Counted from the stretch's first letter, positions 4,652 through 20,288 are shown. The stretch: 40,177 bases of DNA from Actinomycetota bacterium (GCA_009886115.1 VFJJ01000197.1:1-40177), one strand, 5' to 3'. Made by a program: numbers and translations. Notes: generated by a model not told the origin, from the sequence alone.

Positions 4652-6310
4652 TCAGGTGCCGCCGGCCGGGCCGACGAGCTCGGGGACGATCTCGCTGGCG
4701 GCATGACGGGCCCGCAGCACCTTCTTGTCGAACTTGCCGACGGAGGTCTTGGGCACCTCGGCGATGAACGCCCACCGCTCGGGCAGCCACCACCGGGCCA
4801 CCTGGGGCGCCAGGAACGCCGACAGCGCTGCTGCGGTGGCCGCACCGGCGGTGACCCCCTCGCGCAGCACGACACAGGCCATCGGGCGCTCGTCCCACCG
4901 TTCGTCGGGCACCCCGATCACCGAGGCCTCGACCACGTCGGGATGGGCCATGATCAGGTTCTCGAGCTCGACGGTCGAGATCCACTCGCCGCCGGACTTC
5001 ACGACGTCCTTGGCCCGGTCGGTGATCTGCACGAAGCCATGGTCGTCGACGTTGGCGATGTCGCCCGTGCGCAGCCACCCGTCGTGGAACTTCCCGGGGT
5101 CGGGGTCGAGGTGGTACGACGCCGTCACCCACGGGCCTCGTACCTCGATCTCGCCGACGCTCTCACCGTCCCACGGCAGCTCGTTGCCGTCGTCGTCGCA
5201 GATCCGAAGCTCGACGCCGGGGATGACGCGACCCGTGCGCACCCGCCAGGCCATCTGCGACTCGGCGTCGGTCGCGGCATCCTTCGGGGGATGGCCCATG
5301 GCGGCGAGCGGGCTGGTCTCGGTCATGCCCCAGCCCTGGATCATCCTCACGCCGAAGCGTTGCTCGAGCTTCTCCATGAGCGAACGGGGGACGGCCGACC
5401 CGCCGCACATGACCATTCGAAGTGACGAGAGGTCGATCTCGTTGCTCTCGCCGAAGCGCACGATGTCGGCCCAGATCGTGGGGACAGCGCCCGAGAACGT
5501 GGGGCGCTCGGCCGCGATGAGGCGAGTGAGCGGCTCGGCCTGGAGGTACTGCTGGGGCATGAGCAGGTCGGCACCGGCCATGAACGCCGCGTAGGGCATC
5601 CCCCAGGCGTTGGCGTGGAACATCGGCACGATGGTCAACAGCGTGTCGGTCTCGCAGACCCCCAGCACCGCTGCCGAGGTGATCGCCAGCGAGTGGAGCC
5701 AGGCCGAGCGATGGCTGTAGGCCACACCCTTGGGGTTGCCGGTGGTGCCGCTCGTGTAGCACATGGCGCAGGCCGAGCGTTCGTCGATGTCGGGCCACGG
5801 GTAGCTGGGCGGGGCCGCTTCGAGGAGCGCCTCGTAGTCGTGCACCTCGTAGCCCGGGCCGCCGTCGAGCACGGCTCGGTCGCCGGGGCCGGTGACGATG
5901 ATGTGCTCGACGGTCGTGAGCTCGTCTTTCACCCGGGCGAGCAGAGGCAGGATCGACCCGTTGGCGATGACGACGCGGTCGTGCGCGTGGTTGGCCACGT
6001 AGGCGAGTTGCTCGGGGAACAGCCTGATGTTGAGCGTGTGCAGCACAGCGCCCATCGAGGGGACCGCCAGGTAGGCCTCGACGTGCTCCTGGTTGTTCCA
6101 CATGAACGTGCCGACCCGGTCGCCGGGGTTCATCCCCAGTGTCGCCAGCGCCCCGGCCAGCCGCTCGGCCCGATCGCCGACCTGAGCGAAGCTCGCCCGC
6201 CGGCAGTGGTCGCCCTCGAAGGTGATCACCTCGCTGGTCGCATGCACCCGACGGCCGTGGCGGAGGATCATCTGCACCGAGAGGGGGAAGTCCTGCATCG
6301 TGCTCAACAT
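4652..6310 (-). CDS. Fatty acid--CoA ligase (AMP-binding, FadD-like)
   Basis: This 552-residue enzyme of the ANL superfamily activates a medium- or long-chain fatty acid by adenylation and thioesterification to CoA. Visible motifs are the P-loop CYTSGTTGNPKG (184-195), FHANAWGMPY (231-240), the GWGMTETSP signature (326-334), DGWLRTGDIA (409-418), the hinge region DRAKDVVKSGGEW (431-443), and the C-terminal catalytic Lys in KTSVGKFDKK (Lys526). The N-terminal sequence is like many actinobacterial FadD proteins and AlkK-like ligases. The ATG at 6310 has a GGAGG just upstream; the open frame further upstream is not coding. Chain-length specificity cannot be told from sequence. It is divergent from a carboxylesterase, separated by 142 bp. 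Confidence 0.93.
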   Translation of the reverse strand: MLSTMQDFPLSVQMILRHGRRVHATSEVITFEGDHCRRASFAQVGDRAERLAGALATLGMNPGDRVGTFMWNNQEHVEAYLAVPSMGAVLHTLNIRLFPEQLAYVANHAHDRVVIANGSILPLLARVKDELTTVEHIIVTGPGDRAVLDGGPGYEVHDYEALLEAAPPSYPWPDIDERSACAMCYTSGTTGNPKGVAYSHRSAWLHSLAITSAAVLGVCETDTLLTIVPMFHANAWGMPYAAFMAGADLLMPQQYLQAEPLTRLIAAERPTFSGAVPTIWADIVRFGESNEIDLSSLRMVMCGGSAVPRSLMEKLEQRFGVRMIQGWGMTETSPLAAMGHPPKDAATDAESQMAWRVRTGRVIPGVELRICDDDGNELPWDGESVGEIEVRGPWVTASYHLDPDPGKFHDGWLRTGDIANVDDHGFVQITDRAKDVVKSGGEWISTVELENLIMAHPDVVEASVIGVPDERWDERPMACVVLREGVTAGAATAAALSAFLAPQVARWWLPERWAFIAEVPKTSVGKFDKKVLRARHAASEIVPELVGPAGGT

Positions 6311-6452
6311 GGTGGCCTCCTGAGCCGCTGTGTCGTCGGGGCTGCGGGGTCGTGAGCAGCCGTCGCGCTCGAGTGCGTCGTGGCATCGCCGGCTCAGCCG
6401 GGATGAGCGCGCCGATCGCAGCGCAGGATACGAGCGCGCCACACTGTTGGCC

Positions 6453-8000
6453 ATGAGCGCGACCGCCGGCCCGATCGTCGAGACCGTCGCGGGCCGGATC
6501 GCCGGCGCCGCGACCTCGAACGGCATCACCGTCTTCCGGGGGGTGCCCTACGGCGGATCGGCCGCGGGGGCCCAGCGATTCCGCCTGCCGACGCCGCCGA
6601 CGCCGTGGGCGGGTGTTCGCGCTGCCGTCGAGTTCGGCCCCGCAGCCCAGCAACGCCAGATCCCGTGGTTGGCTCAGCTCCTGCCGGGGATGGGCACCGG
6701 GGAGCTGAGCGAGGACTGCCTCTCGCTCAACGTCTGGACGCCGGGGTGCGATCCCGCAGCGAAGCGCCCCGTGATGGTGTGGGTCCACGGCGGCGCGTTC
6801 ACGATCGGCTCGGGCGCCGAGCCGTGGTACGAGGGCTCCAAGCTCGCGCGGCGGGGCGATGTCGTTGTCGTGACCGTCAACTACCGGTTGGGTATCTTCG
6901 GCTTCGCCGCGCTGGCGGGCGCCGGCCAGGGAGCGCTCGTCGACGCAGCGGTGGCCAACGCCGGGCTGCACGATCAGGTCGCGGCGTTGCGGTGGGTCCG
7001 CGACAACGTGACCTCCTTCGGGGGTGATCCAGCCAACGTGACGATCTTCGGGGAGTCGGCCGGGGCCATGTCGGTGAGCGCCCTGCTGGGCATCCCGAGC
7101 GCCCGAGGGCTGTTCCACCGGGCGATCGCCCAGAGCGGCGCCGCCCATCATGTGGCTCCGGCTGCCCATGCGGGCGAGGTGGTCGATCGGATGCTGCATG
7201 CGCTCGACCTCGACGCTTCCTCGGCGAGCCGCTTGCGCGACATGCCCGTCGAACGGCTGCTCGAGGTGCAGCTCGAGATGGAGCTCCGAACCTGGTCGGA
7301 CGCCGACGCCCATCACCTGGCGTTCTGCCCCGTGGTCGACGGCGATCTGCTGCCCGCGCACCCGCTCGATGCGATCCGTGCGGGGAGCGCCGCAGGCGTC
7401 GCTCTCCTCGCGGGCTCGAACCGCAACGAATGGAACCTGTTCCAGTTCCTCGACCCCGACCTCAACCGTCTCGACGACGTCCGCTTCGTGGAGCGCTGCG
7501 AAGCCCTCTACCCCGGACACGGCGCCGAACTGGCGGCCGCCTACGTCGACGCCCATCCCGCGGCCACACCCTGGCAACGGCTCCTGGAGCTGCGGACCGA
7601 CTGGGGATTCCGGGTACCGGCGCTCCAGCTGCTCGAAGCGCAAGCCGTCCACAGCGCGCACACGTACCGCTACGAGTTCGCGTGGCCGTCGCCGGCCATG
7701 GGAGGCATGCTCGGGGCCTGTCACGCCTTGGAGCTCCCGTTCGTGTTCGACACCCACGACGTGCCCGGGACGGCCGTCTTCACCGGTGAGGGAGCGGCCG
7801 TCGACCGCCTCACCCGGGCGATGCAGGACGCCTGGATCGCCTTCGCCCGCACGGGCAACCCGAACCATGACGGGCTTGCGGCCTGGCCCGGTGCCATCGC
7901 TGCCGCCGGTCGTCCCTGCCTGGTGCTCGACGAGACCATCCACGTCGACCCGGGTCGAGACGATGCCGATCACCACGCGTTCTGGCGCCGGCACCGCTAG
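6453..8000 (+). CDS. Type-B carboxylesterase / lipase family protein
   Basis: This 515-residue alpha/beta hydrolase of the carboxylesterase type-B family (PnbA-like) hydrolyses carboxylic esters. Motifs in order: FRGVPYGG (28-35), EDCLSLNVWTP (87-97), the oxyanion-hole loop VHGGAF (111-116), the nucleophile elbow GESAG with Ser202, the acid Glu326 in GSNRNEWNLF, and His424 in ACHALELPFVF. The complete triad suggests an active enzyme. No signal peptide is seen, so it is probably cytoplasmic. The start ATG 6453 lacks a strong Shine-Dalgarno. A 54-bp hairpin element follows the stop codon, and the next gene converges. Substrate is unknown; pairing with the acyl-CoA ligase hints at ester or lipid catabolism (inference). 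Confidence 0.92.
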   Translation: MSATAGPIVETVAGRIAGAATSNGITVFRGVPYGGSAAGAQRFRLPTPPTPWAGVRAAVEFGPAAQQRQIPWLAQLLPGMGTGELSEDCLSLNVWTPGCDPAAKRPVMVWVHGGAFTIGSGAEPWYEGSKLARRGDVVVVTVNYRLGIFGFAALAGAGQGALVDAAVANAGLHDQVAALRWVRDNVTSFGGDPANVTIFGESAGAMSVSALLGIPSARGLFHRAIAQSGAAHHVAPAAHAGEVVDRMLHALDLDASSASRLRDMPVERLLEVQLEMELRTWSDADAHHLAFCPVVDGDLLPAHPLDAIRAGSAAGVALLAGSNRNEWNLFQFLDPDLNRLDDVRFVERCEALYPGHGAELAAAYVDAHPAATPWQRLLELRTDWGFRVPALQLLEAQAVHSAHTYRYEFAWPSPAMGGMLGACHALELPFVFDTHDVPGTAVFTGEGAAVDRLTRAMQDAWIAFARTGNPNHDGLAAWPGAIAAAGRPCLVLDETIHVDPGRDDADHHAFWRRHR

Positions 8001-8082: not shown

Positions 8083-9621
8083 TCAGCAGACCGTTCCGTC
8101 GGCCGGGGCCTCGAGGTCGATCAGGTAGGCGTCGACGGCATCGTCGATGCAGTCGCTCTTGCCGCCGTAGGCCGTGTGACCCTCGCCCTCATAGGTCAAC
8201 AGCACGCCCGAGGCGAGCTGCTCGGCCAGGGCCACGGCGCCCTCGTACGGCGTGGCAGGGTCGCCGGTCGTGCCCACGAGCAGGATCGGCGGCGCGCCGG
8301 GCACGGTCTCGGTGCTCGGAATGGGATCGGCTGCCGTCGGCCAACCGGTGCACGAGGCCAGCCCGAGCCCGATGAAACGGCCCCAGACCGGGTACCGAAC
8401 GGCCAGCTCATCGGCCAGGCGTTCCGCGTCGTCGTATGACGGCCGCTCGTCGCTGTCGGCGCAGTTGATCGCCACGTTGGCGTCGCTCAGATTCCCGTAC
8501 ACGCCGTCACCTTGGTAGTCGGTGAAGTCGTCCGACAGAGCGAGCAGGATCGTGCCGTCGCCACCGTCGGCTGCGTCGAGACCGAGCTCGAGGTAGTCCC
8601 ACCCGGACTCGCTGTCGTAGAGGGCGCGGAGGATGCCGATCTGGGCCTCGCCCAGGTGCAGGAGGCGGCCGTCTTCCTCGAGCAGCTCGGCGTCGGTGGG
8701 CAGGGTCTCGCCATCCTCGAGGCGGGCGAGGACGCGCTCCATCACCGCCCGGGGATCGGGGCCGATCGGGCACGATCTCCGGCTCTCACACGCGGCGAAG
8801 AAGGCCCCGGTGGCCTCCTCGAAGCTGGCGGCGTCCTGGCTCACCGAGTCGGCCGCCTCGAGCTGCGGATCGACGACCCCGTCGAGCACCAGCGCCCGGA
8901 CACGGGCGGGGAACAAGACGGCATAGGCGTAGCCCAAGGAGGTCCCGTAGGAGTATCCCAGGTACGTGAGCCTCTCGTCGCCGATCGCTTCGCGGATCCG
9001 GTCGAGGTCGCGGGCGGCGTTGTTGGTGCCCACGCTGGACAGCAGCTCTCCGGCGTTGCGCTGGCAGGCGGTCACGAACTCGTCGTGGAGCGCCCAGACC
9101 CGCTCGATCTCCTGGGGGGTGTCGGGATCGCCGTCGAAGGCGGCGGAGGTCGCCGTGTCGTCCGCGCACTCGATGGCGGTGCTCTGCCCCACGCCCCGCG
9201 GGTCGAAGCTGACGAGGTCGAAGCGGTCCTGTACCGCCTCGGGCAACGACTCGAAGCCCGACCTGAGGAACTCGACGCCGGGCGCTCCCGGACCGCCGAA
9301 GTTGATCACCAGGGAGCCGACGCGCCGACCCTCGTCCTCGGCCGGCCGCCGGGTCACGGCGATCTCGATCTCGGGCCCGTCGGGATCGGCGTAGTCGACC
9401 GGCACGAGGAGCGTGGCACAGTCGAAGTCGTCGCTCTCGCCGTTGTCGCCTTCGGGACACGGCTCCCATGCGAGCGCGATCCCGCTCGACGCCCCGGGCG
9501 AGCTGGCGGTGGTCTCGGGCTCGGCTCCTCGAGACGTGGAGTCGTCGGCGCAGCCGGCAGCCATGAGCATCAGGACGAGCGCCACCGGGAGCCCGTTGAC
9601 CAAGAATGAGCTCCGTCGCAT
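8083..9621 (-). CDS. Secreted lipoprotein alpha/beta hydrolase, S33 family (tripeptidyl aminopeptidase-like)
   Basis: This 512-residue protein begins with a lipoprotein signal peptide: MRRSSF, a hydrophobic stretch, and lipobox LMAAGC with the lipidated Cys24. It then has the alpha/beta-hydrolase core: NFGGPGAPG (108-116, oxyanion loop), FDPRGVGQS (140-148), and the nucleophile elbow GYSYGT with Ser225. The C-terminal TAP-like domain contains LLVGTTGDPATP (acid) and GEGHTAY (His). It resembles mycobacterial and streptomycete secreted peptidases of MEROPS S33, such as tripeptidyl aminopeptidases, so release of N-terminal peptides outside the membrane is likely but not proven. The ATG at 9621 has AGGAGG a few bases upstream, a strong start. 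Confidence 0.92.
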   Translation of the reverse strand: MRRSSFLVNGLPVALVLMLMAAGCADDSTSRGAEPETTASSPGASSGIALAWEPCPEGDNGESDDFDCATLLVPVDYADPDGPEIEIAVTRRPAEDEGRRVGSLVINFGGPGAPGVEFLRSGFESLPEAVQDRFDLVSFDPRGVGQSTAIECADDTATSAAFDGDPDTPQEIERVWALHDEFVTACQRNAGELLSSVGTNNAARDLDRIREAIGDERLTYLGYSYGTSLGYAYAVLFPARVRALVLDGVVDPQLEAADSVSQDAASFEEATGAFFAACESRRSCPIGPDPRAVMERVLARLEDGETLPTDAELLEEDGRLLHLGEAQIGILRALYDSESGWDYLELGLDAADGGDGTILLALSDDFTDYQGDGVYGNLSDANVAINCADSDERPSYDDAERLADELAVRYPVWGRFIGLGLASCTGWPTAADPIPSTETVPGAPPILLVGTTGDPATPYEGAVALAEQLASGVLLTYEGEGHTAYGGKSDCIDDAVDAYLIDLEAPADGTVC

Positions 9622-9674: not shown

Positions 9675-11807
9675 TCACCCGGCAGGGCTCGAGGTGCTCG
9701 CGGTCGGTGCACTCGTCGTCGCTGGGACCGTGGTCGTCGTCGGGTTCGAGACCGTCGAGCAGACCTCGAGCGCCAGGCTCATGCTCTCCTCGAAGTCGGC
9801 CGACGGCTGCCCGGCGACCGCGGCCGCGAGCTCGTCGATGCCGACCGCATCGCGAACCAGGTCGACGATGCACTCGGCACCGGCGCGATCGATCCGCTCG
9901 ACGGCCTGGGTGGAGGCGACGAGGCCGGCTCGGGCGACCAGGGCATCCCAGGTGGAGGTCTGCTCCTCCCGAACCGTGGGGGCCAGCCCCGTCTCGTTGC
10001 ACAGGCCCAGCGTGACGACATCGTTCTGCAGCTCGATGTCGGCCCCGGGAACGGTCTCGGCCCAGACCCTGAACGCGTCGTCGACCTCGTCGAGATCCTT
10101 GAGCGTTCGGCCGGCGACCGAGACCCTGAGGCAGGTCTCCGAACCGCGCCTGGTGAGCAGATACACGTCGCCGTCGGTGCCGGTGACCGCGGTCCAGGCC
10201 TGCTGGAAGTTGGTCCGCTCGCCGATCAGCAGGAGCAGGTGCAACACGCCGAGCCGGCCGGACGCGAGCGGGATCTCACCGGGACCGGGCGTCGGAACGT
10301 CGACTCGACGAGCCTCGTGGCCGACCAGGGCGTCCAGGGGGAACAGCAGATGATCTGTCGAATCGGGAGGATCGGCGTAGAACGCCGACAGGGCGTCGCG
10401 TCCCTCGGCTTCGAGCACCAGACCGAGCCAGTCCGATCCCAGCCTGAAGGGTGCCTCGTGGGCTGCGACCAGAGCGTCAGACGGCCCGCGTGCAGGTTCG
10501 GGGGCCATGAGGATCGCCAGCTCTGCGCTCTCGGGATCGATGTCCATGCCGATCCGGTCACCGATCTCCTGCTCGAGCGCGGAACGATCGCTCACCGACA
10601 TGTCGGCGAGCAGCGCCGCGGTGATGCGGTCGGCGTCGCCCTCGATCAGGGAACGACGGGCCACCGCCTCGTCGACGGCGAACCCGCCGTCGCCGATGTC
10701 GCTGTGCTGATCGACCAGCGCGACCAGGAGCTGGCGACCGATCGCAATGCGCCCGAGTGGCGTCACCGTCTCGCCCCGCAGATACAGCGTGTCGACGGTG
10801 ACGTCGTAGCGCGCCGCCGCGAGGGACGGGAGGACGGTGGCAGCCTCGCCGGTCGTCGATCTGAGCGATCGGGCCCCGATCCGAGATCCCGGCGTCTCGG
10901 CGGTCGAGGTCGTATCCGTCGTCGGCCCGGTCGGCGTATCCGTTGCGGGGGTTGCCTTGGACGGAGAGACGGTCGGGGGGAGCAGGCCTGCCGTCAACAG
11001 GACCGCATCCCAGGCCCGAGCCGACCGCTCGGTTGCCGCGACGGTTCCGGGCGTCTCGACCGGGGGGTCGGCCCCATCGTCGGCGTCATCGGTCGCCCAG
11101 CCCTGGTCGACTCTTTGATCGAACTCGATCTCGGTGAGGACCTCGACGTCGACGGGGAACTGGAACGTCAGGCCCCGGGTGTTCTCGACGGCCCGGGCGA
11201 TCGACGCGATGCGGCCATCCCATTCGATCTCGATGGGTGCCAGGGTGGCGAGGTTGCTCGGCACCTGGTCGCCCGACACGGGCTGTCGTCCGATGGCGAG
11301 ATAGACGACGCCGATCACCGACACCGTCGCCAGGGCGAGGAGCACGCGAAACGTGGCCGACGACGAAGAGCTGAGGATGGCTTGCAGCGTCACCGCCTCG
11401 GCCGCCTCGGCCCTTCTCGTGGCTCGTGTCGCGACCTCGCGACCGCCGCCCAGCTCCGACGAGTCGACCTCCGGCTCGAGCTCCCACACGAGCTTGTCGT
11501 CGAGGTCGACGTTCTCGGCGTGGAGATCGACGGGGCCGGCATGATCCAGCGAGGGTCGACCCAGGGCGGCCCCGAGCGCTCCACGGCCGACCGTCGCGGC
11601 CGATCGGTCGGTGGGGTTCCTGGCCTGGTCGCCGGTGTCGGAACCCGGCTCGGCCACCCGACAGCTCCAACAGCTCGGCTCGGCGAAGTGCACCCTGCTT
11701 CCGCACGCGAAGCAGGTGGTCATCAGCGACGCTCGACACGACGGGCAGTTGTTGTCGAGCAGGGGTGCGGGCTTGCCGCAGCGCGGGCAGCTCGGATCGA
11801 CCCTCAT
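9675..11807 (-). CDS. Zinc-ribbon membrane protein with degenerate metallopeptidase-like outer domain (paralogue 2)
   Basis: This 710-residue protein starts with two four-Cys zinc ribbons (CxxC at 7/10, 21/24, 32/35, 46/49), then an acidic linker and one membrane span at about 152-172 (VLLALATVSVIGVVYLAI). After the span comes a domain with the order of the actinobacterial metallopeptidase-like family that normally contains HELTHALQDQH: VENTRGLTFQFPVDVEVL, DTLYLRGETVTPLG, then RQLLVALVDQHSDI (358-371), then SLIEGDADRI. At the zinc site the expected His, Glu, His read Arg358, Gln359, Val362, so it should not be a working protease. A Thr-rich tail ends the protein. The ATG overlaps the TGA of the upstream paralogue by four bases. 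A pseudo-enzyme with scaffold or sensing role is inferred. Confidence 0.85.
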   Translation of the reverse strand: MRVDPSCPRCGKPAPLLDNNCPSCRASLMTTCFACGSRVHFAEPSCWSCRVAEPGSDTGDQARNPTDRSAATVGRGALGAALGRPSLDHAGPVDLHAENVDLDDKLVWELEPEVDSSELGGGREVATRATRRAEAAEAVTLQAILSSSSSATFRVLLALATVSVIGVVYLAIGRQPVSGDQVPSNLATLAPIEIEWDGRIASIARAVENTRGLTFQFPVDVEVLTEIEFDQRVDQGWATDDADDGADPPVETPGTVAATERSARAWDAVLLTAGLLPPTVSPSKATPATDTPTGPTTDTTSTAETPGSRIGARSLRSTTGEAATVLPSLAAARYDVTVDTLYLRGETVTPLGRIAIGRQLLVALVDQHSDIGDGGFAVDEAVARRSLIEGDADRITAALLADMSVSDRSALEQEIGDRIGMDIDPESAELAILMAPEPARGPSDALVAAHEAPFRLGSDWLGLVLEAEGRDALSAFYADPPDSTDHLLFPLDALVGHEARRVDVPTPGPGEIPLASGRLGVLHLLLLIGERTNFQQAWTAVTGTDGDVYLLTRRGSETCLRVSVAGRTLKDLDEVDDAFRVWAETVPGADIELQNDVVTLGLCNETGLAPTVREEQTSTWDALVARAGLVASTQAVERIDRAGAECIVDLVRDAVGIDELAAAVAGQPSADFEESMSLALEVCSTVSNPTTTTVPATTSAPTASTSSPAG

Positions 11808-13744
11808 GGGGCCGCGTCCGCCACGCTCCCGACGGCGTTCTGCGCGGGGTAGAGGGAGTTCAGCGCCGGGTAGTAGCCAGCGCATGCCGCCACGGCTTGC
11901 GCGAAGGTCGGCGTGTCGAGCATCGAGCCGGTCGTCGTCTCGGCCACCGCAGCGTCGACCAGGCCGTCGTTTCCGAGTTGCGCCCGCATGCTGTCGACAA
12001 CGCAGAACCCCGCGTCGGCGTCGACCCCGAGGGTGATCACCGCGCCCAGCGCCTGCGCCCGGGCCATCTGGACGAGCCCGGCCGACCACCGCTCGGTCCT
12101 GGTGGTCTGCGAGTTCGTCGCCGCGCCGGTCGCCTCCAGCATCGCTGTCGTCGTCGTCGTCGATTGAACGGCCCCCGAGGGAGCGATCCCCGTCGTGGTC
12201 GCGGCTGACGGGGTGTCGATGGTCGCGGCCGAGCAGGTGTGCAACGAGATCGACGCGGGCTTCGAGACCACCGTGGCGTTCGGCAGACCCGCCGCCCAGC
12301 GCTCGAACACGTCGAGCACGACCCCAGGGGCCGTTGCCGCGTCGAGGGCGACCGTGAGATCGAGGCAGACCTGCTCGGAGGTGCGACTCACGAGATACCG
12401 ATCGTTGCGCCACTCGGCCGCGGCGGCGAGGCTGGGGTCGAAGTCGAGGCGTTCACCGAGGAGCACCAGCAGGTGCAACGCCCCGAGTCGGCCCTGGGCC
12501 ACCACGTCGAACCCGCTGGCCGGCGAAGGCGATTCGATGGACGGACGGGTGTTGGTCCGGCCCGGGGAGAGCAGCTCGATCTCGCCGGGCGCGGCAACGG
12601 CGAAGAGCTCGCCGACGGAGAGATCGTCACCTCCCCGGTCCCTGAGCTCCAAGGCCAGCCAACCGTCATGCGCCGTCGTGCCCAGGAGATACGACGCCGC
12701 GCCGAAGCCCTGCGTGTCCAGGAGCAGACGCCGGGTGGCCACCTCGTCGTGCTGCGCCGTGGCGTGTTCATCGCGCTCGACCCCGACCAGCTCGGCGACG
12801 TATCGATCGACGATCGCGCTGCGCGCCGACGCGATCCGCGCCGCCCAGCCCGTGACGGCCTCGAGCTCAGCGGCTTCCGGGGCGCTCACGTCGAGGTGCT
12901 GGGCCAGCAGCGCCACCGTGAGCTGGCCCACGAGCTCCGCGCGGACGTCGGTCCCGGCTCCCGTCGCCGAGATGTACACGACTCGCTCGCCGTTGTCGTA
13001 GGCCACCCGGCTGGCGACGACGGAAGCCAATGAGGCCGTCGGCGCGTCGTCGTGGACCCCCGCTGCCGCCCCGACCGAGCTCCACACGGCGCCCGACGCG
13101 TCGAGTGCTGCGACGAGCAGGTCGTTGTCGCGATGCGCGACGAACTCGGGATCGTCGAAGACCACGGTCACGGGTTCCCGGAACTCGAGCCCGACCTCGT
13201 TCTCGACGAAGGCGACGAGATCGGTGACGCGGGGGTCCCACCTGGGCTCCTCGGCCGATGTCGTCTCTCGACCGTCCGCTGACGGGCCGCCGTCGCGTCC
13301 CTGGGTGACCAAGAAGGCGCTGCCCGCACCGGCGGCGAGCGCCAGCACCGTCAGGATCTTCACGGCCGAGCGGGAAGCGCCGGAGCGCGCCGTGGACGAC
13401 GAGAGGAAGGCTGGCAGCGCGGCGTCGGTGCGGGCGGCGCCTGTCGCCCGTCCGTTCCGGTGCTTGCGGCCGCGCGCGGACTGCTCGGCGTCGGAGCTCC
13501 CACCATCGGCTCCGGTTTCGCCGCTCGGGTCGACGTCGGGTACGGGCTCGCCATCGCGTAGCGATGACGGGTGACCGGCAGCCGGGTGCTCGACCCGACA
13601 GTTCCAGCACACCCCCTCGGCCAGGTGGACGGCGGCACGACATCGGCGACACGCTGTCATGAGCGACGCTTGGCACTCGGGGCATTTGTTCTCGAGCAAC
13701 GGCGCCGACCCGCTGCAGCGGGGGCAGACCGCCTCGATCTTCAT
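11804..13744 (-). CDS. Zinc-ribbon membrane protein with degenerate metallopeptidase-like outer domain (paralogue 1)
   Basis: This 646-residue protein has the same architecture as its downstream neighbour: Cys pairs at identical positions (7/10, 21/24, 32/35, 46/49), a polar linker, a membrane span at about 128-147, and an outer domain beginning FVENEVGLEFREPVTVVF. The place of the HELTHALQDQH motif reads GQLTVALLAQHLDV (273-286): His, Glu and His are replaced by Gly273, Gln274 and Val277. The later EGDA-type motif is also lost here (ARSAIVDRYV). The segment RLGALHLLVLLGERLDF matches the family's C-terminal part. GGAGAG precedes the ATG at 13744. The 312-bp gap to the divergent multicopper oxidase contains nothing recognisable besides the motif at 13988. 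Confidence 0.85.
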   Translation of the reverse strand: MKIEAVCPRCSGSAPLLENKCPECQASLMTACRRCRAAVHLAEGVCWNCRVEHPAAGHPSSLRDGEPVPDVDPSGETGADGGSSDAEQSARGRKHRNGRATGAARTDAALPAFLSSSTARSGASRSAVKILTVLALAAGAGSAFLVTQGRDGGPSADGRETTSAEEPRWDPRVTDLVAFVENEVGLEFREPVTVVFDDPEFVAHRDNDLLVAALDASGAVWSSVGAAAGVHDDAPTASLASVVASRVAYDNGERVVYISATGAGTDVRAELVGQLTVALLAQHLDVSAPEAAELEAVTGWAARIASARSAIVDRYVAELVGVERDEHATAQHDEVATRRLLLDTQGFGAASYLLGTTAHDGWLALELRDRGGDDLSVGELFAVAAPGEIELLSPGRTNTRPSIESPSPASGFDVVAQGRLGALHLLVLLGERLDFDPSLAAAAEWRNDRYLVSRTSEQVCLDLTVALDAATAPGVVLDVFERWAAGLPNATVVSKPASISLHTCSAATIDTPSAATTTGIAPSGAVQSTTTTTAMLEATGAATNSQTTRTERWSAGLVQMARAQALGAVITLGVDADAGFCVVDSMRAQLGNDGLVDAAVAETTTGSMLDTPTFAQAVAACAGYYPALNSLYPAQNAVGSVADAAP

Positions 13745-13987
13745 TGCGCTCTCCCTGGCCGCACCCGTGATCGGTCCCGCCGCGACGAACCATGCCGCCT
13801 GGCGTGGACTGATCTCCTCCTCGGAGATTCGACCGGCTCAGGGCCTCGCTTGAGCAGTTCAGCTCGGGCGGGCCACCGGTCCGCACCTTCGCGTGAACGC
13901 GAGGAGGGTCCGAGGTTTGGGCAAAGACCCGAGATCGCTCCGGGGCCACTGCGCTTCGCGGCGTTTCGACCCGTATCGACGAATTGT

Positions 13988-14020
13988 CAAAAGGTTTTCA
14001 ACAGGTCGCCCTTCTACGAT
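13988..14020 (+). promoter_or_regulatory. Conserved motif upstream of the first multicopper oxidase (candidate promoter)
   Basis: CAAAAGG followed after 20 bases by TACGAT, with a TCAACAGGTC block between, recurs with the same spacing upstream of the second oxidase (15680-15712). TACGAT looks like a -10 box 36 bp before the start codon at 14057; no standard -35 is at 16-19 bp, so an activator-dependent or alternative-sigma promoter is possible. Confidence 0.5.
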
Positions 14021-14056
14021 CCCGGGACTGTTCGAACCGAACTCCAGGGGTGGGGA

Positions 14057-15637
14057 ATGGCGCTCACACGGCGCGAGATGTTGAAGTTGGGGATTGCCGG
14101 GTCGGCGGCGGTGGCGCTGCCGCTCCAGCGAGTGGTGAGCGGCGCTGTGGCCCAGACCCGGATCGCCGAGAGCAGCTTGCCGGCGCCGTTCACCGTCCCG
14201 TTCGCGGTCCCGCCGGTCATCACCCCGCACCGAACCGACGCCACCACCGACTACTACATGCTCACGCAGAAGCAGTCGACGGTTCAGATCCTCCCGGGCA
14301 TCAACACGCCCGTCTGGGGTTACAACGGCATCGTCCCCGGCCCGACGATCGACGTGCAGCAGGGTCGCCAGGTGCTCATCCGCCAGGTCAACAAGCTCCC
14401 GGACCGTCACCCCATCGCCGGGTACCAGCCCTGGACCTCGACGCACCTCCACGGCTCGCCGTCGTTGCCGCAGTTCGACGGCTACGCCAGCGACATCACC
14501 CGGCCGGGACAGTACAAGGATTATCGCTATTCCAACACCGAGAGTGCCCGTACGCTCTGGTACCACGATCACGGGGTGCACCACACGGCTGAGAACGCCT
14601 ACATGGGGCTGGCGGCGTTCTACCGGCTGCACGATCCCCTCGAGGTGTCGTTGCCGATCCCCAAGGGGAACTACGACATCCCGTTGATGATCCACGACGC
14701 CATGTTCGCCACCGACGGGCAACTCATCGGTGACGACCACGATCATTCGGGCATCATGGGCGACGTCATCCTCGTGAACGGCCGCCCGTGGCCCGTGATG
14801 CAGGTCGAGCAGCGCAAGTACCGGTTCAGGATCCTGGTCGGGAGCATGTCGCGCTCGTACCGGTTGAAGCTCGACAGCGGCCAGATGATGACGGTGATCG
14901 CCGGCGATGGCGGGTTCATGCCGGTACCGCAGCCTGTCAGTGTGCTGCGGACGGGCATGGCCGAGCGCTACGAGGTGATCATCGACTTCGCCAACATCCC
15001 GATCGGCCAGCGGGTCGTGATGCGCAACCTCCCTCGCAGCGACAGCGACGACAACAACATCTCCTACACCCACACCGACAAGGTCATGGCCTTCGATGTC
15101 GTTGCACCGTCGTCGAGCTCAGCGAACAACGAGATCCCGGCGGTGCTCGACCCGAACAACCCGGTCATGGCCCTCCAACCGGCCCAAGCCGTCGCCCGTC
15201 GAACCATGAAGCTCGACCGCTCCAAGGGCCAGTGGACGATCAACGGCACATCGTGGGCTGACGTGGTCGCCAGCGGATACAAGAAGGTGATGGCCAACCC
15301 CAAGCTGAACGACATCGAGATCTGGACGATCGAGAACGCGAGTGGCGGCTGGTTCCACCCGCTGCACATCCATCTCGTCGACTTCAAGATCCTCGACCGC
15401 AACGGCTTGCCCCCGCTGCCCCAGGAGCTGGGCCCCAAGGATGTTGTCTACGTCGGCGAGAACGAGACGGTACGGCTGATCATGCGCTTCGGCCCGCACC
15501 TCGGGAAGTACATGATCCACTGCCACAACATGGTCCATGAAGACCACGACATGATGACCCAGTTCGAGGTGGGCACCGGCGGACCCGACCCCATCCGGGC
15601 CGCTCTTCCCAAGTGGGGCTCGCCCCCTGCCCCATGA
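14057..15637 (+). CDS. Multicopper oxidase, Tat-exported (copy 1)
   Basis: This 526-residue protein has a twin-arginine signal (TRREMLKLGIAGSAAVAL), so it is folded with copper before or during export. All four copper motifs of a CotA-like laccase are present: HLH (130-132), HDH (170-172), HPLHIH (434-439) and HCHNMVHEDHDMM (488-500), giving the type-1 site (His434, Cys489, His494, Met499 or 500) and the trinuclear centre. It should oxidise phenols, metals or other donors and reduce oxygen to water; the donor cannot be deduced. The ATG at 14057 follows AGGGGTGGGGA. It is very similar to the third oxidase at 18720, indicating a local duplication. Confidence 0.95.
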   Translation: MALTRREMLKLGIAGSAAVALPLQRVVSGAVAQTRIAESSLPAPFTVPFAVPPVITPHRTDATTDYYMLTQKQSTVQILPGINTPVWGYNGIVPGPTIDVQQGRQVLIRQVNKLPDRHPIAGYQPWTSTHLHGSPSLPQFDGYASDITRPGQYKDYRYSNTESARTLWYHDHGVHHTAENAYMGLAAFYRLHDPLEVSLPIPKGNYDIPLMIHDAMFATDGQLIGDDHDHSGIMGDVILVNGRPWPVMQVEQRKYRFRILVGSMSRSYRLKLDSGQMMTVIAGDGGFMPVPQPVSVLRTGMAERYEVIIDFANIPIGQRVVMRNLPRSDSDDNNISYTHTDKVMAFDVVAPSSSSANNEIPAVLDPNNPVMALQPAQAVARRTMKLDRSKGQWTINGTSWADVVASGYKKVMANPKLNDIEIWTIENASGGWFHPLHIHLVDFKILDRNGLPPLPQELGPKDVVYVGENETVRLIMRFGPHLGKYMIHCHNMVHEDHDMMTQFEVGTGGPDPIRAALPKWGSPPAP

Positions 15638-15679
15638 GGTTTGGTCCCTCACCGCGCTTCGCCCGATTCGCGGGGATGC

Positions 15680-15712
15680 CAAAAGGCTGCTCAAAGGTCC
15701 CATTTGTACGTT
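15680..15712 (+). promoter_or_regulatory. Conserved motif upstream of the second multicopper oxidase (candidate promoter)
   Basis: CAAAAGG, then TCAAAGGTCC, then TACGTT, matches the motif at 13988-14020 with identical spacing between AAAAGG and TACG(A/T)T. GCGCTTCGC also occurs a short way upstream in both regions. It lies 89 bp before the start at 15802, in the 164-bp gap after the first oxidase. Confidence 0.5.
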
Positions 15713-15801
15713 CGCCTACGCAACGTTGGTGGGAGTCCCATCCGAGGGCCGGGTTCGCGCCCTGGACCATTCGAGATAGGTGACGAGCGAGGAGCGGTCA
15801 C

Positions 15802-18006
15802 ATGACTGACGAGCTCGAAGGCGACATCTTGGAATCCGAAAGTGAGGGCACGATTCCGCGCCGAGCCCTCCTGAAGCTCGGCGTGGCGGGGGCTGCGGCG
15901 CTCGCGCTCGGGAGTGCCGGGTCCCTGATCGTGCCGGACCTACGCCGTAGGGGCCTGTTGTCCGCCAACGGAGTGTTCGACGCGGCCTCGATCGCGTGGG
16001 CCGATACTCTGTACAAGGAGCTCTTCCCCACGAGCCCCCTGATCGTGTCGCCCTTCCAGGACGAGCTGCCCATTCCCAGGGCACTGGCGCCCACCCCGAT
16101 GTCGGAGTACAGCTCCTGGAAGACACCGCCGGGACCCGGAAACGGCCAGCAATCGGCATACGGCAACGACAGGCATCAGATCTGGCCGAGCACCGTTGGT
16201 TATCCCGACCCGATCGTGTACCAGATCAAGGTGCAGGTGAACACGCATGCGTTCACCACGTCTCAGGTACTCCCGATCGACTCGAAGGGGCTCCCGTCGA
16301 TCTCGTTCGACGCGACCGGCAAGAGATATCCCGCGGGGACGCGACGGGCGCTGCCACCCAGCACGATCTATGGATTCAATGGGACCTTCCCCGGCCCCAT
16401 GATCAACGCCGAGTACGGCAAGCCCGTGCTGCTCCGGTTCCAGAACGAGTTGGATGAGAACCCCCTCGACCTCGACCGCCAGGACTTCGGCTCGCCCGAC
16501 TGGTCATTCCTGACCCACCTCCACAACGGGCACACGGCTCCCGAGAGCGACGGCAACCCGCACTACGCCATGAACTACGGCCCACGGGATCGCGGGTACG
16601 CCCCCCAGATGTGGGTCGACAACCTCTATCTCAACTGGCCCGCGGGTGGCGATTCCCGCGAGAAGCAGAGCTTCTTCTGGATGCACGACCACACCATGGA
16701 CCACACTGGCGCCAACGTCTACAAGGGCATGGTTGGCCTGTACCCGATCTATGATCCCGCGCAGAACCTGGACGCGGGCGACGAGACAATGGGCTACCGG
16801 TTACCCGGCGTCCGAACGAACAACCCGGACGGGTCGTTCGACGTCGAGTACGACATCCCGCTGGCGATCTACGACTGCCGCCTCGACGACGGGGTCACCA
16901 AGCACCTGGACATCCACGACGGGATGGGCGAGTACCCCGAGGCGAAGAACCCGCGCACCCATCCGGAGTGGTGGGGCAAGACGTTCTACAAGCACTTCCC
17001 CAACCACGGCTTCGTGGGTGACATCTTCACGGTCAACGGGACGGCTTACCCGGTGCTGGAGGTCAAGCGGCGCAAGTACCGCTTCCGGTTCCTCGACGCG
17101 TCCGTCGCCCGTATTTACGAGTTCAAGCTGATGAGCTCGACACAGGGGCCGAAGACGGCCACGTCGCTCGGCTACACGGGAACCGAGCTCCAGGGTCAGT
17201 ACCGCATCCCCGACGCGCAGCAGTGCATGCAGTTCACCCAGATTGCCACTGACGGTGGCCTCATCCCGTTCCCGATAACACGCGACTCGTTCGAGCTCTG
17301 GCCCGCCAAACGCCGCGAGTTCATCGTCGATTTCACGAAATATCAGGATGGCACGCCGACCACGAAGGGCGACGTGATCTACCTGACCAACGTGATGAAG
17401 ATGCCCGACGGACGCATGTGGACGAACTCGTCGAGATCCCTTCCGGACCCGAACTACAAGATACCGGTCCTGAAGATCGTGATCGGCGACGACGCCCCAG
17501 ATGACAGCCAGATCCCCACCGCGCTTCGCCCCCTGCCGGATGTACCAGCGAACTGGCAATCGATGCTCGACAATCGCACGATCTTCGAGGTGAAGCGCGG
17601 CAGCCTGGGTGGTGAGATCGAGTGGCTGATCAACGGCAAGCCATTCGATCCGGCACAAGTGGCGACGAGCCTGAGGAATCCCGCAGGCAGGTCGCCGCTC
17701 GCACAGCAGCGGATGGGGAGCTACAACCTCTGGGAGCTGCGCAACGGTGGTGGCGGGTGGGTGCATCCATTCCACCTGCACATGGAGGAGCATCGCACGC
17801 TCATGCGCAACGGGAAGGTCGTGAAACCGGGTGACGCGGCGCACCCCGACGACATCTCCAAGGAGGATCTCGTGGCGTTGGATCCCGGTGAGTCGGTGAT
17901 CATCGGCCGATACTTCCGAGACTTCATCGGTCCCTATGTTGGCCATTGCCACAACCTCGCGCACGAGGACCACGCCATGATGTTCGGCTGGGAGATCGTG
18001 CCGTAG
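15802..18006 (+). CDS. Multicopper oxidase, Tat-exported, long form
   Basis: This 734-residue protein is longer than and clearly different from the two neighbouring oxidases. A Tat motif IPRRALLKLG (18-27) precedes a hydrophobic stretch. Copper motifs are HLH (239-241), HDH (295-297), HPFHLH (655-660) and HCHNLAHEDHAMM (715-727), a complete set. Extra length comes from an N-terminal segment of about 150 residues and an insertion around residues 430-470, in the manner of phenoxazinone-synthase or bilirubin-oxidase-like enzymes; the substrate is not predictable. GAGGAG lies upstream of the ATG. The following membrane protein starts within 40 bp, so they are probably co-transcribed. Confidence 0.94.
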   Translation: MTDELEGDILESESEGTIPRRALLKLGVAGAAALALGSAGSLIVPDLRRRGLLSANGVFDAASIAWADTLYKELFPTSPLIVSPFQDELPIPRALAPTPMSEYSSWKTPPGPGNGQQSAYGNDRHQIWPSTVGYPDPIVYQIKVQVNTHAFTTSQVLPIDSKGLPSISFDATGKRYPAGTRRALPPSTIYGFNGTFPGPMINAEYGKPVLLRFQNELDENPLDLDRQDFGSPDWSFLTHLHNGHTAPESDGNPHYAMNYGPRDRGYAPQMWVDNLYLNWPAGGDSREKQSFFWMHDHTMDHTGANVYKGMVGLYPIYDPAQNLDAGDETMGYRLPGVRTNNPDGSFDVEYDIPLAIYDCRLDDGVTKHLDIHDGMGEYPEAKNPRTHPEWWGKTFYKHFPNHGFVGDIFTVNGTAYPVLEVKRRKYRFRFLDASVARIYEFKLMSSTQGPKTATSLGYTGTELQGQYRIPDAQQCMQFTQIATDGGLIPFPITRDSFELWPAKRREFIVDFTKYQDGTPTTKGDVIYLTNVMKMPDGRMWTNSSRSLPDPNYKIPVLKIVIGDDAPDDSQIPTALRPLPDVPANWQSMLDNRTIFEVKRGSLGGEIEWLINGKPFDPAQVATSLRNPAGRSPLAQQRMGSYNLWELRNGGGGWVHPFHLHMEEHRTLMRNGKVVKPGDAAHPDDISKEDLVALDPGESVIIGRYFRDFIGPYVGHCHNLAHEDHAMMFGWEIVP

Positions 18007-18042
18007 ATGTTGGTTCATTTCCAGACGAGGAGTTCCAAGATA

Positions 18043-18723
18043 ATGAACCGGAGCTCACCACGGCTCTCATGGGCGACGATCGCAATCCTGGCTTTCGTGA
18101 TCTCCTTTGGCGACGGCTTCATCGCCACGTCCCTACACGGTGCGATCGGTGCTATCGAGCGCACCGGTTCGCCGTTTGCGTACTGGCTTCGTAGCTCGAC
18201 GTTGATGCTCCCGCTGTACGTCCTAGCGGTGACGGTTGCCCTCGTGGCCGCACGTCGCTGGGTCGGGCAGAGCCGGCGAACGCCGGTCAAGCTGGCCGTC
18301 GCCGCGCTACTCGTCATCGGGATCACGAGCGCCGTCGGGGTCGCCGAGGTGGCAGCCAGCTCGACGTACGACTACCACCTCCAGTCACGTGAGCTGGAAC
18401 GCGTGCATTCGGTGCATTCGGTGCATTCACATCCGAGCAGCACCCACCCCGCAACGCTCGATCTGGCGTCGGGTTCAACATGTTCTGCGCTCTGTGAGGC
18501 GAAGCGCTCCACGCTCGCCGTGCATGTGCGGGCCGTGAAGTACGCCGCCGTCGTGCTGTTGATCACGAACCTCGTGCTGGTCGCATTCGTGCTGGTGTTC
18601 CGCGGCGATCGCTTGTGGCTGCGGCACGACCGGATACGGGGTGCGCATCGGGGACGACACCGCCACCGTGCCGCTGGCGGTGTCGGGCATCTCGCCGGAA
18701 CCCGAACCTCGATCGCCTCATGA
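18043..18723 (+). CDS. Four-span membrane protein with His-rich loop
   Basis: This 226-residue protein (from ATG 18043, with GAGGAG ten bases upstream; ATG 18007 directly after the oxidase stop is an alternative) has about four membrane spans: AILAFVISFGDGFIA, TLMLPLYVLAVTVALVA, LAVAALLVIGITSAVG and AAVVLLITNLVLVAFV. Between spans three and four is a roughly 60-residue loop with VHSVHSVHSHP and two Cys, encoded partly by a 9-bp triplicated repeat. Such a loop could bind copper or another metal. The last 40 residues are unusually Arg/His-rich and may reflect a frame disturbance. The TGA overlaps the ATG of the third oxidase (ATGA), indicating translational coupling. The family was not recognised. 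Confidence 0.65.
   Translation: MNRSSPRLSWATIAILAFVISFGDGFIATSLHGAIGAIERTGSPFAYWLRSSTLMLPLYVLAVTVALVAARRWVGQSRRTPVKLAVAALLVIGITSAVGVAEVAASSTYDYHLQSRELERVHSVHSVHSHPSSTHPATLDLASGSTCSALCEAKRSTLAVHVRAVKYAAVVLLITNLVLVAFVLVFRGDRLWLRHDRIRGAHRGRHRHRAAGGVGHLAGTRTSIAS
18403..18429 (+). repeat. 9-bp triplication encoding Val-His-Ser x3
   Basis: GTGCATTCG, GTGCATTCG, GTGCATTCA follow directly on one another within the membrane-protein gene and encode VHSVHSVHS in the loop. Confidence 0.9.
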
Positions 18724-20288
18724 CACTGACTCGGCGCGAGATGCTCAAGTTGGGGCTGGCGGGGTCGGCGGCGATCGCGTTGCCCGTCCGGCGGATGGTT
18801 CGCGCCGACGACGGGCCCGGTCGGATTTCCGAGAGCCGCCTCCCTGAGCCTTTCACGGTGCCCTTCGCGGCGCTGCAGGTACTGGCACCGTCTCGTGTCG
18901 ACGCGACGACCGACTACTACTCGATCACCCAGCGCCCGGCAACGGCCCAGATCATCCCCGGGTTCGACACGCCGGTGTGGGGGTACAACGGCCTCGTACC
19001 CGGGCCCACGATCGAGGCTCAGCAGGGTCGACGGGTCGTTGTGCGCATGGCCAACGCCTTACCGGCGACGCATCCCACTCTGGGCTACCTCCCGTCGACG
19101 TCGACCCATCTTCACGGCGCGCCGTCCCGTCCCCAGTACGACGGGTACGCCAACGACCTGACGCTCCCCGGGCAGTGGAAGGACTACGTCTACAACGACG
19201 TGCCCAACGGCCGCACGATCTGGTACCACGATCACGCCGTCCACCACACGGCCCCGAACGTGTACATGGGCCTGGCCGGCATGTACCTCGTGCGAGACCC
19301 GCTCGAGCAGGGGCTGGCGATCCCCCAGGGCCGCTATGACGTGCCCCTGATGATCCAGGACGCGCTCTTCGCCAGCGACGGCAGCCTCCTCTTCGACGAC
19401 GATGACGAGTCGGGCCTGATGGGCGACGTCATCCTCGTCAACGGTCGGCCGTGGCCGGTGATGCGGGTGGAGCGGCGCAAGTACCGGTTCCGGATCCTGA
19501 TCGCCAGCTTGTCGCGCTCGTACCGGCTGGCCCTCGACACGGGTGATCCGCTCACCGTGATCGCCACCGACGGCGGCTTGATGGCGGCCCCTCAGCCCGT
19601 CACCAGACTCCCCGCCAGCACGGCGGAGCGTTACGAGGTGATCATCGACTTCGCCAAGTATCCGATCGGGCGACGAGTCGTGCTGCGCAACCTGAGCAAC
19701 AAGAACAACGTCGACTATCCCGATACCGACAAGGTCATGGCCTTCGACGTCGTCGATGAGCCCTCGAGCACGGAGGGTAACTCGATCCCCTCGGTGCTCG
19801 ACCCGAACAACCCCGTGATGGCCCTCGATCCGGCCCTGGCGGTGGCCCGGCGATCGATGAAGCTCGATCGCGGTGGCGGCCAGTGGACGATCAGTGATGT
19901 GATCTGGGACGACATCGTGGCCAGCAGGTTCAGGAAGGTGTTCGCCAACCCCCAGCTGAACGACGTCGAGATCTGGACGCTCCAGAATTCGAGCGGCGGT
20001 TGGTTCCACCCGTTGCACCTCCACCTCGTCGACTTCAAGATCCTCGACCGCAACGGCAAGCCTCCGCGGGCTCACGAACGGGGCCCGAAGGACACCGTGT
20101 ATCTCGGCGAGAACGAGACGATCCGCGTAATCGCCCGTTTCGGCCCCCACCGCGGTCGATACCTGGTGCACTGCCACAACGTCGTGCACGAAGACCACGA
20201 CATGATGACCCAATACGAGGTCGGAACCGGCGGAGACGACCCCATCACGAGCGCGCCCGCAGTGTGGGGCACCCCTCCCGCTCCCTGA
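18720..20288 (+). CDS. Multicopper oxidase, Tat-exported (copy 2 of the short form)
   Basis: This 522-residue protein is a close paralogue of the oxidase at 14057; most motifs are identical, including the Tat signal TRREMLKLGLAGSAA. Copper motifs are HLH (130-132), HDH (170-172), HPLHLH (430-435) and HCHNVVHEDHDMM (484-496). Differences cluster in the loop before residue 230, where copy 1 has DDHDHSG and this copy has DDDDESG, which could alter metal or substrate access. The start overlaps the stop of the preceding membrane-protein gene by four bases, and there is no Shine-Dalgarno, so translation is probably coupled. No copy of the upstream motif found before the first two oxidases was seen. 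Confidence 0.93.
   Translation: MTLTRREMLKLGLAGSAAIALPVRRMVRADDGPGRISESRLPEPFTVPFAALQVLAPSRVDATTDYYSITQRPATAQIIPGFDTPVWGYNGLVPGPTIEAQQGRRVVVRMANALPATHPTLGYLPSTSTHLHGAPSRPQYDGYANDLTLPGQWKDYVYNDVPNGRTIWYHDHAVHHTAPNVYMGLAGMYLVRDPLEQGLAIPQGRYDVPLMIQDALFASDGSLLFDDDDESGLMGDVILVNGRPWPVMRVERRKYRFRILIASLSRSYRLALDTGDPLTVIATDGGLMAAPQPVTRLPASTAERYEVIIDFAKYPIGRRVVLRNLSNKNNVDYPDTDKVMAFDVVDEPSSTEGNSIPSVLDPNNPVMALDPALAVARRSMKLDRGGGQWTISDVIWDDIVASRFRKVFANPQLNDVEIWTLQNSSGGWFHPLHLHLVDFKILDRNGKPPRAHERGPKDTVYLGENETIRVIARFGPHRGRYLVHCHNVVHEDHDMMTQYEVGTGGDDPITSAPAVWGTPPAP

Follow-up and report, generated by a model that had tools for sequence, protein, structure and literature searches.

Loss of the HExxH motif in the predicted outer domains of two tandem zinc-ribbon membrane proteins from an uncultured actinobacterium

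What might two neighbouring genes be for if each encodes a zinc-ribbon module, a membrane span, and an outer domain that resembles a metallopeptidase devoid of its catalytic motif? This question is raised by P1 and P2 of an uncultured actinobacterium (Table 1). The window, that is, the whole stretch of DNA analysed (40,177 nucleotides), is one entire contig of a 5.4-Mb assembly that is 95.6% complete and represents the sole genome of its family in the set examined.

Table 1. Features of P1, P2, and the adjacent hydrolase gene (positions in the window)
Feature	Position	Strand	Description or basis
P1	11804-13744	minus	646 aa; double zinc ribbon, one predicted span, outer pseudo-metallopeptidase domain
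P1 double zinc ribbon, residues 7-49	13598..13726	minus	eight Cys; sequence, Pfam match
P1 membrane span, residues 128-146	13307..13363	minus	hydropathy
P1 outer region, residues 169-646	11807..13240	minus	AlphaFold2 pLDDT 79.6, pTM 0.79; 3cmn Z 10.2
P1 dead site GQLTV, residues 273-277	12914..12928	minus	at the place of HELTH; profile alignment
P2	9675-11807	minus	710 aa; tandem paralogue of P1
P2 double zinc ribbon, residues 7-49	11661..11789	minus	eight Cys; sequence, Pfam match
P2 membrane span, residues 155-173	11289..11345	minus	hydropathy
P2 outer region, residues 196-710	9678..11222	minus	AlphaFold2 pLDDT 82.1, pTM 0.80; 3cmn Z 10.3
P2 dead site RQLLV, residues 358-362	10722..10736	minus	at the place of HELTH; profile alignment
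P2 EGDA, residues 389-392	10632..10643	minus	third-ligand Glu kept (replaced in P1); sequence
P2 C-terminal alpha/beta domain, conserved Cys pair	9996..10292	minus	weakly similar to the outer sensor domain of PknH and to RseB/MucB
TAP-like alpha/beta hydrolase	8083..9621	minus	lipoprotein-type signal; probable third operon gene

Two overlapping genes with double zinc ribbons

A first-pass annotation had described two adjacent paralogues with eight cysteines at the same positions and one span each, made together by virtue of overlapping stop and start codons. Both open reading frames were recovered with these features. The TGA of P1 and the ATG of P2 share the tetranucleotide ATGA, and co-translation is likely. 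The G+C contents at the three codon positions, 0.71/0.56/0.88 and 0.70/0.54/0.86, are typical of real genes. The ATG of the TAP-like gene, preceded by AGGAGG, lies 53 nt past the P2 stop codon. Carboxylesterase and AMP-binding enzyme genes follow beyond it (6330-8000, plus strand, and 4655-6529, minus strand), and multicopper oxidase domains are encoded by three plus-strand frames (13571-20285) divergent from P1. At the other family loci, mostly inspected with 1.5-6 kb of flanking DNA, no TAP-like, esterase, or multicopper oxidase gene related to those of the window was found, and a search of a plasmid collection gave no match.

The cysteines occupy residues 7, 10, 21, 24, 32, 35, 46, and 49 in both proteins, which are 56% identical over residues 1-50. 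Both contain four CxxC pairs in the spacing of PF12773 (DZR) and match positions 1-44 of the 45 in this profile, with scores of 20.6 and 20.4 bits that lie under the gathering cut-off of 27.3. One strong hydrophobic segment is present in each protein. The ribbons, presumably loaded with zinc, would lie on the cytoplasmic side of the membrane. No signalling domain was detected in P1 or P2 apart from the ribbon, which is the most constrained part between them (dN/dS 0.37). Among the members examined, only P1 and P2 carry a double ribbon. Used alone as a query across the order, it yielded no second full-length match; the partial matches were shorter ribbon-like stretches, several of them in frames of DnaJ-like length. 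The combination of an inner zinc module with an outer peptidase-like domain had been regarded as unusual, a view that found no support in this form: at least six relatives (L012, L028, L031, L032, L167, and L043) have a single zinc ribbon ahead of the span and an intact HExxH motif, and loss of HExxH proved to be recurrent (see below).

P1 and P2 may stem from a membrane-anchored metallopeptidase-like gene that was duplicated in tandem, with catalysis being lost. The argument for duplication comes from adjacency and ribbon identity because the sisterhood of P1 and P2 was not steady between trees, with 98% support in one quick tree, whose branches were long, and an unsettled placement in the next. 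Both proteins are among the longest branches in both trees.

The dead site and the predicted fold of the outer domains

The outer domains had been proposed to follow a family that normally carries HELTHALQDQH, with the zinc-binding His/Glu/His gone at Gly273/Gln274/Val277 of P1 and Arg358/Gln359/Val362 of P2, and with an EGDA-type motif left in P2 and lost from P1. Profile-profile comparison bore this out. With hhalign, a P1+P2 profile and an intact-only profile were aligned over their whole length (probability 100, E 5.4e-45), and RQLLVALVDQHSDI was placed on HELTHALQDQHFDL without a gap; P1 by itself reached E 4.3e-23. The extended motifs are GQLTVALLAQH, beginning at P1 residue 273, and RQLLVALVDQH, beginning at P2 residue 358. 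Hence H/E/H is replaced by G, Q, and V in P1 and by R, Q, and V in P2, and the third-ligand Glu of the EGxA motif is present in P2 and absent in P1. Columns that look structural are kept in both proteins, namely Pro 23, Gln 119, Gly 197, Cys 299, Trp 322, and Cys 345 (L014 numbering). The Arg in place of the first His and the Gln in place of Glu agree with the substitution biases reported for HExxH (PMC3650047). Judged by sequence, the loss of the catalytic motif from P1 and P2 is firm, and their sequences combine homology to peptidases with the absence of the catalytic residues, as is characteristic of pseudopeptidases. The intact relatives are presumably peptidases, considering their HExxH motif and fold.

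The modelled outer region of P1 consists of a zincin-like domain, a C-terminal alpha/beta domain with conserved Cys, and a Thr-rich stretch. In VIA-align, 3cmn was the top match of both models, with 215 residues for P1 and 210 for P2, each at an rmsd of 5.2 (Z 10.2 and 10.3, respectively). All rows after 3cmn had Z values under 7; these lower matches included clostridial collagenase peptidase domains for both models and M1 aminopeptidases for P2. The 3cmn structure is zincin-like (SCOP d.92.1.16) and belongs to DUF2342 (PMC3650047). A zincin-like fold of the predicted outer domains is well supported by these models, in line with the gluzincin-like fold that had been anticipated. Neither of the two outcomes that the first-pass annotation had named as refuting its reading was observed. 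Foldseek gave no match in the PDB at E <= 0.001, with unrelated designed proteins topmost, and a sequence search of solved structures with one intact member found nothing. Profile searches of solved structures returned only IrrE and, later, 3cmn weakly (A2 profile, E 0.002). For the C-terminal domain, the PknH-type structure 4esq (Z 6.2 and 6.5) and RseB/MucB (Z 5-6) scored too low for a common fold to be accepted with confidence.

Recurrent loss of HExxH in a widespread family

Relatives occur in 30 of the 58 genomes of the order, mostly as proteins of ~500 aa with HELTHALQDQH and EGDA. A profile search detected the family in 241 of the 395 genomes sampled from the class, and a genome-wide scan located it also in Nocardioides, Chloroflexi, Acidobacteria, myxobacteria, and Haloarcula. 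No Pfam family covers the outer domain of P1, P2, or the relatives tested, and the DUF6782 matches in intact relatives are weak. NCBIfam NF038145 (Hvo_1808 family surface protein) matches 28 of 29 aligned members; P2 matches it with E 7.5e-9 and 34-35 bits (the curated cut-off is 200), and P1 not at all. HVO_1808 has been treated as a putative lipoprotein (PMC2945643), and our literature search gave no other study. A survey of genomes for homologues with HExxH and for the tandem pair, as suggested by the first-pass annotation, yielded the former; no orthologue of the pair was found in the 58 genomes of the order or the 395 of the class. Among the members examined, the pair alone has double ribbons, a tandem arrangement, and dead sites in both copies, and this combination therefore rests on one MAG.

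The same genome encodes a distant third member with intact HELDH and EGDA (locus L141, 3414-5687, minus strand, on contig C210 of G000). It adjoins an adenosine deaminase gene and scores 134 bits versus 357 and 291. Haloarcula has two overlapping intact family frames in tandem (L109, 4140-6945, and L112, 4164-6972), and intact tandem pairs were also seen at L075 and L078.

Of the 209 members found at the loci examined, 195 retain HExxH and 12 lack it; two do not extend over the motif. The Glu of EGxA is kept in all 198 members that start with HE at the motif. Because 195 of 207 members retain HExxH and every HE-starting member retains this Glu, the loss of H/E/H is specific. The lost share (12/207, or about one in 20) is lowered by the choice of members, which was not random, part of them having been collected by a pattern scan that favours HExxH. 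The lost-site members form seven groups, namely P1 and P2 of the window, the HELxR copies in three genomes of a single genus, L042, L192/L220, L195/L200, L201, and L100_5512. At least five changes are needed on a tree built with the motif columns left out, several placements being unsure. L195/L200 sit among the intact members L076, L080, and L085 (support 99) and have an inositol-monophosphatase family neighbour gene in common with them; thus, loss of the site probably took place at a single conserved locus. A gene of this family lies on the opposite strand near L076, L080, L085, L250, L251, L252, and L254, which include intact and lost-site members. It was rejected as a common context, as it links some lost-site and intact members and is absent for the window. 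At L100 (5512-8522, 'bacterium OM1 bin76'), a lost-site copy with GEIAK and EADA is located immediately upstream of an intact one.

By a simple method, dN/dS was 0.16-0.33 for five pairs of lost-site orthologues and 0.24-0.41 for three intact pairs. The values are about alike, and we conclude that the lost-site proteins are kept. Since no orthologue of the window pair was found, this evidence of purifying selection comes from relatives in other lineages and not from P1 and P2 themselves. Lost-site and intact copies coexist in genomes G003 and G049. The notion that a lost-site copy always accompanies an intact one was dropped, because three near-complete genomes (G226, G337, and G206; 97-99% complete) have a lost-site copy only. 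Thus, lost-site proteins do not have to assist an intact member of the family, and these genomes suggest that the domain can persist where no intact relative exists.

Possible roles of the pair and related systems

The first-pass annotation had tentatively proposed a sensor or an assembly scaffold. We lean, with slightly better than even confidence, towards P1 and P2 being tandem duplicates that have lost catalysis and work as a co-made pair of noncatalytic receptors or adaptors. As relatives lost the same site at the frequency and on the number of branches given above, the two proteins probably function as non-enzymes and bind something on the outside of the cell. There, the dead zincin cleft and the C-terminal domain would bind a ligand (a peptide, a wall component, or a partner protein), and in the cytoplasm the double zinc ribbons may pair both chains or dock an inner partner; pairing is suggested by the gene overlap, and signalling could accompany it. 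In other metallopeptidase families, pseudopeptidases act as receptors or partners (PMC11266112). A bolder version, in which the two chains make up a transmembrane receptor whose dead clefts read an outside ligand and whose ribbons relay inward, as one case of a repeated conversion of this large actinobacterial surface metallopeptidase family into receptors, appears rather unlikely to us.

The main rival, which we rate as a tentative possibility, is that P1 and P2 are accessory subunits positioning, chaperoning, or restraining either the TAP-like lipoprotein or the distant intact paralogue on C210. The probable operon with the TAP-like gene and the presence of an intact member in the same genome would fit this role, as would the joint occurrence of lost-site and intact copies in two further genomes and their direct adjacency at L100. 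Inactive partners also serve in other peptidase families, and prokaryotic two-gene M16B operons have an alpha/beta subunit arrangement (PMC11266112). However, no homologue of the TAP-like protein was found within the flanks, mostly short, of other family loci, the C210 paralogue is distant by score, and lost-site copies occur alone in three near-complete genomes.

Whether the outer domains of P1 and P2 are functionless and drifting must also be considered: no orthologue of the pair is known, and the outer-domain dN/dS between P1 and P2 of 0.7-1.0 also fits relaxed constraint. Their long branches and the greater losses in P1 than in P2 point in the same direction. Yet both genes are long intact reading frames with a coding base composition, Cys, Trp, and core positions are retained, the AlphaFold2 models are confident, and lost-site members elsewhere are under purifying selection. 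We judge decay to be quite improbable. It is still more improbable that P1 and P2 remain enzymes using another metal site or another chemistry. EGDA is present in P2, and our literature search found no assay of the family, but the cleft of either protein is without the H/E/H ligand set and that of P1 also without the Glu.

Noncatalytic receptors or adaptors, the reading we prefer, can be set against several known systems. The NF038145 (Hvo_1808) family is homologous to P1 and P2 over the whole outer domain, and nearly all of its members have HELTHALQDQH and EGDA, whereas P1 and P2 are devoid of HExxH, carry a double ribbon, and score as described above. DUF2342 (PF10103; 3cmn, Caur0242) shares the zincin fold as the best structural match of both models; P1 and P2 have no Pfam match to it and differ in being membrane proteins, in having a second outer domain, and in carrying a zinc ribbon. 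The six single-ribbon relatives have the ribbon, the span, and the outer metallopeptidase domain in common with the pair, but they possess four instead of eight Cys, an intact site, and no tandem copy in the stretches seen. The lost-site members of other lineages (L041, L042, L192/L220, L195/L200, L201, and L100_5512) resemble P1 and P2 in the loss of HExxH and in having an N-terminal hydrophobic segment; no zinc ribbon was found in them, and they are single copies or, at L100, lie beside an intact copy.

TcaA-type proteins of Firmicutes have a membrane span and outer domains. They also contain a zinc ribbon domain (PMC10611510), whereas Pfam reports no TcaA domain in P1 or P2. Our literature search turned up no description of a zinc-ribbon pseudoprotease in bacteria, and the pseudopeptidases studied so far are mostly animal proteins (PMC11266112). 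Here, a bacterial surface family that is widespread in its class loses its active site repeatedly, with the lost-site copies under purifying selection, and the three near-complete genomes that have a lost-site copy only offer simple systems for asking about the noncatalytic role of the domain. As seen in one assembly, P1 and P2 would represent a known kind of protein, the pseudopeptidase, in a previously unstudied bacterial family.
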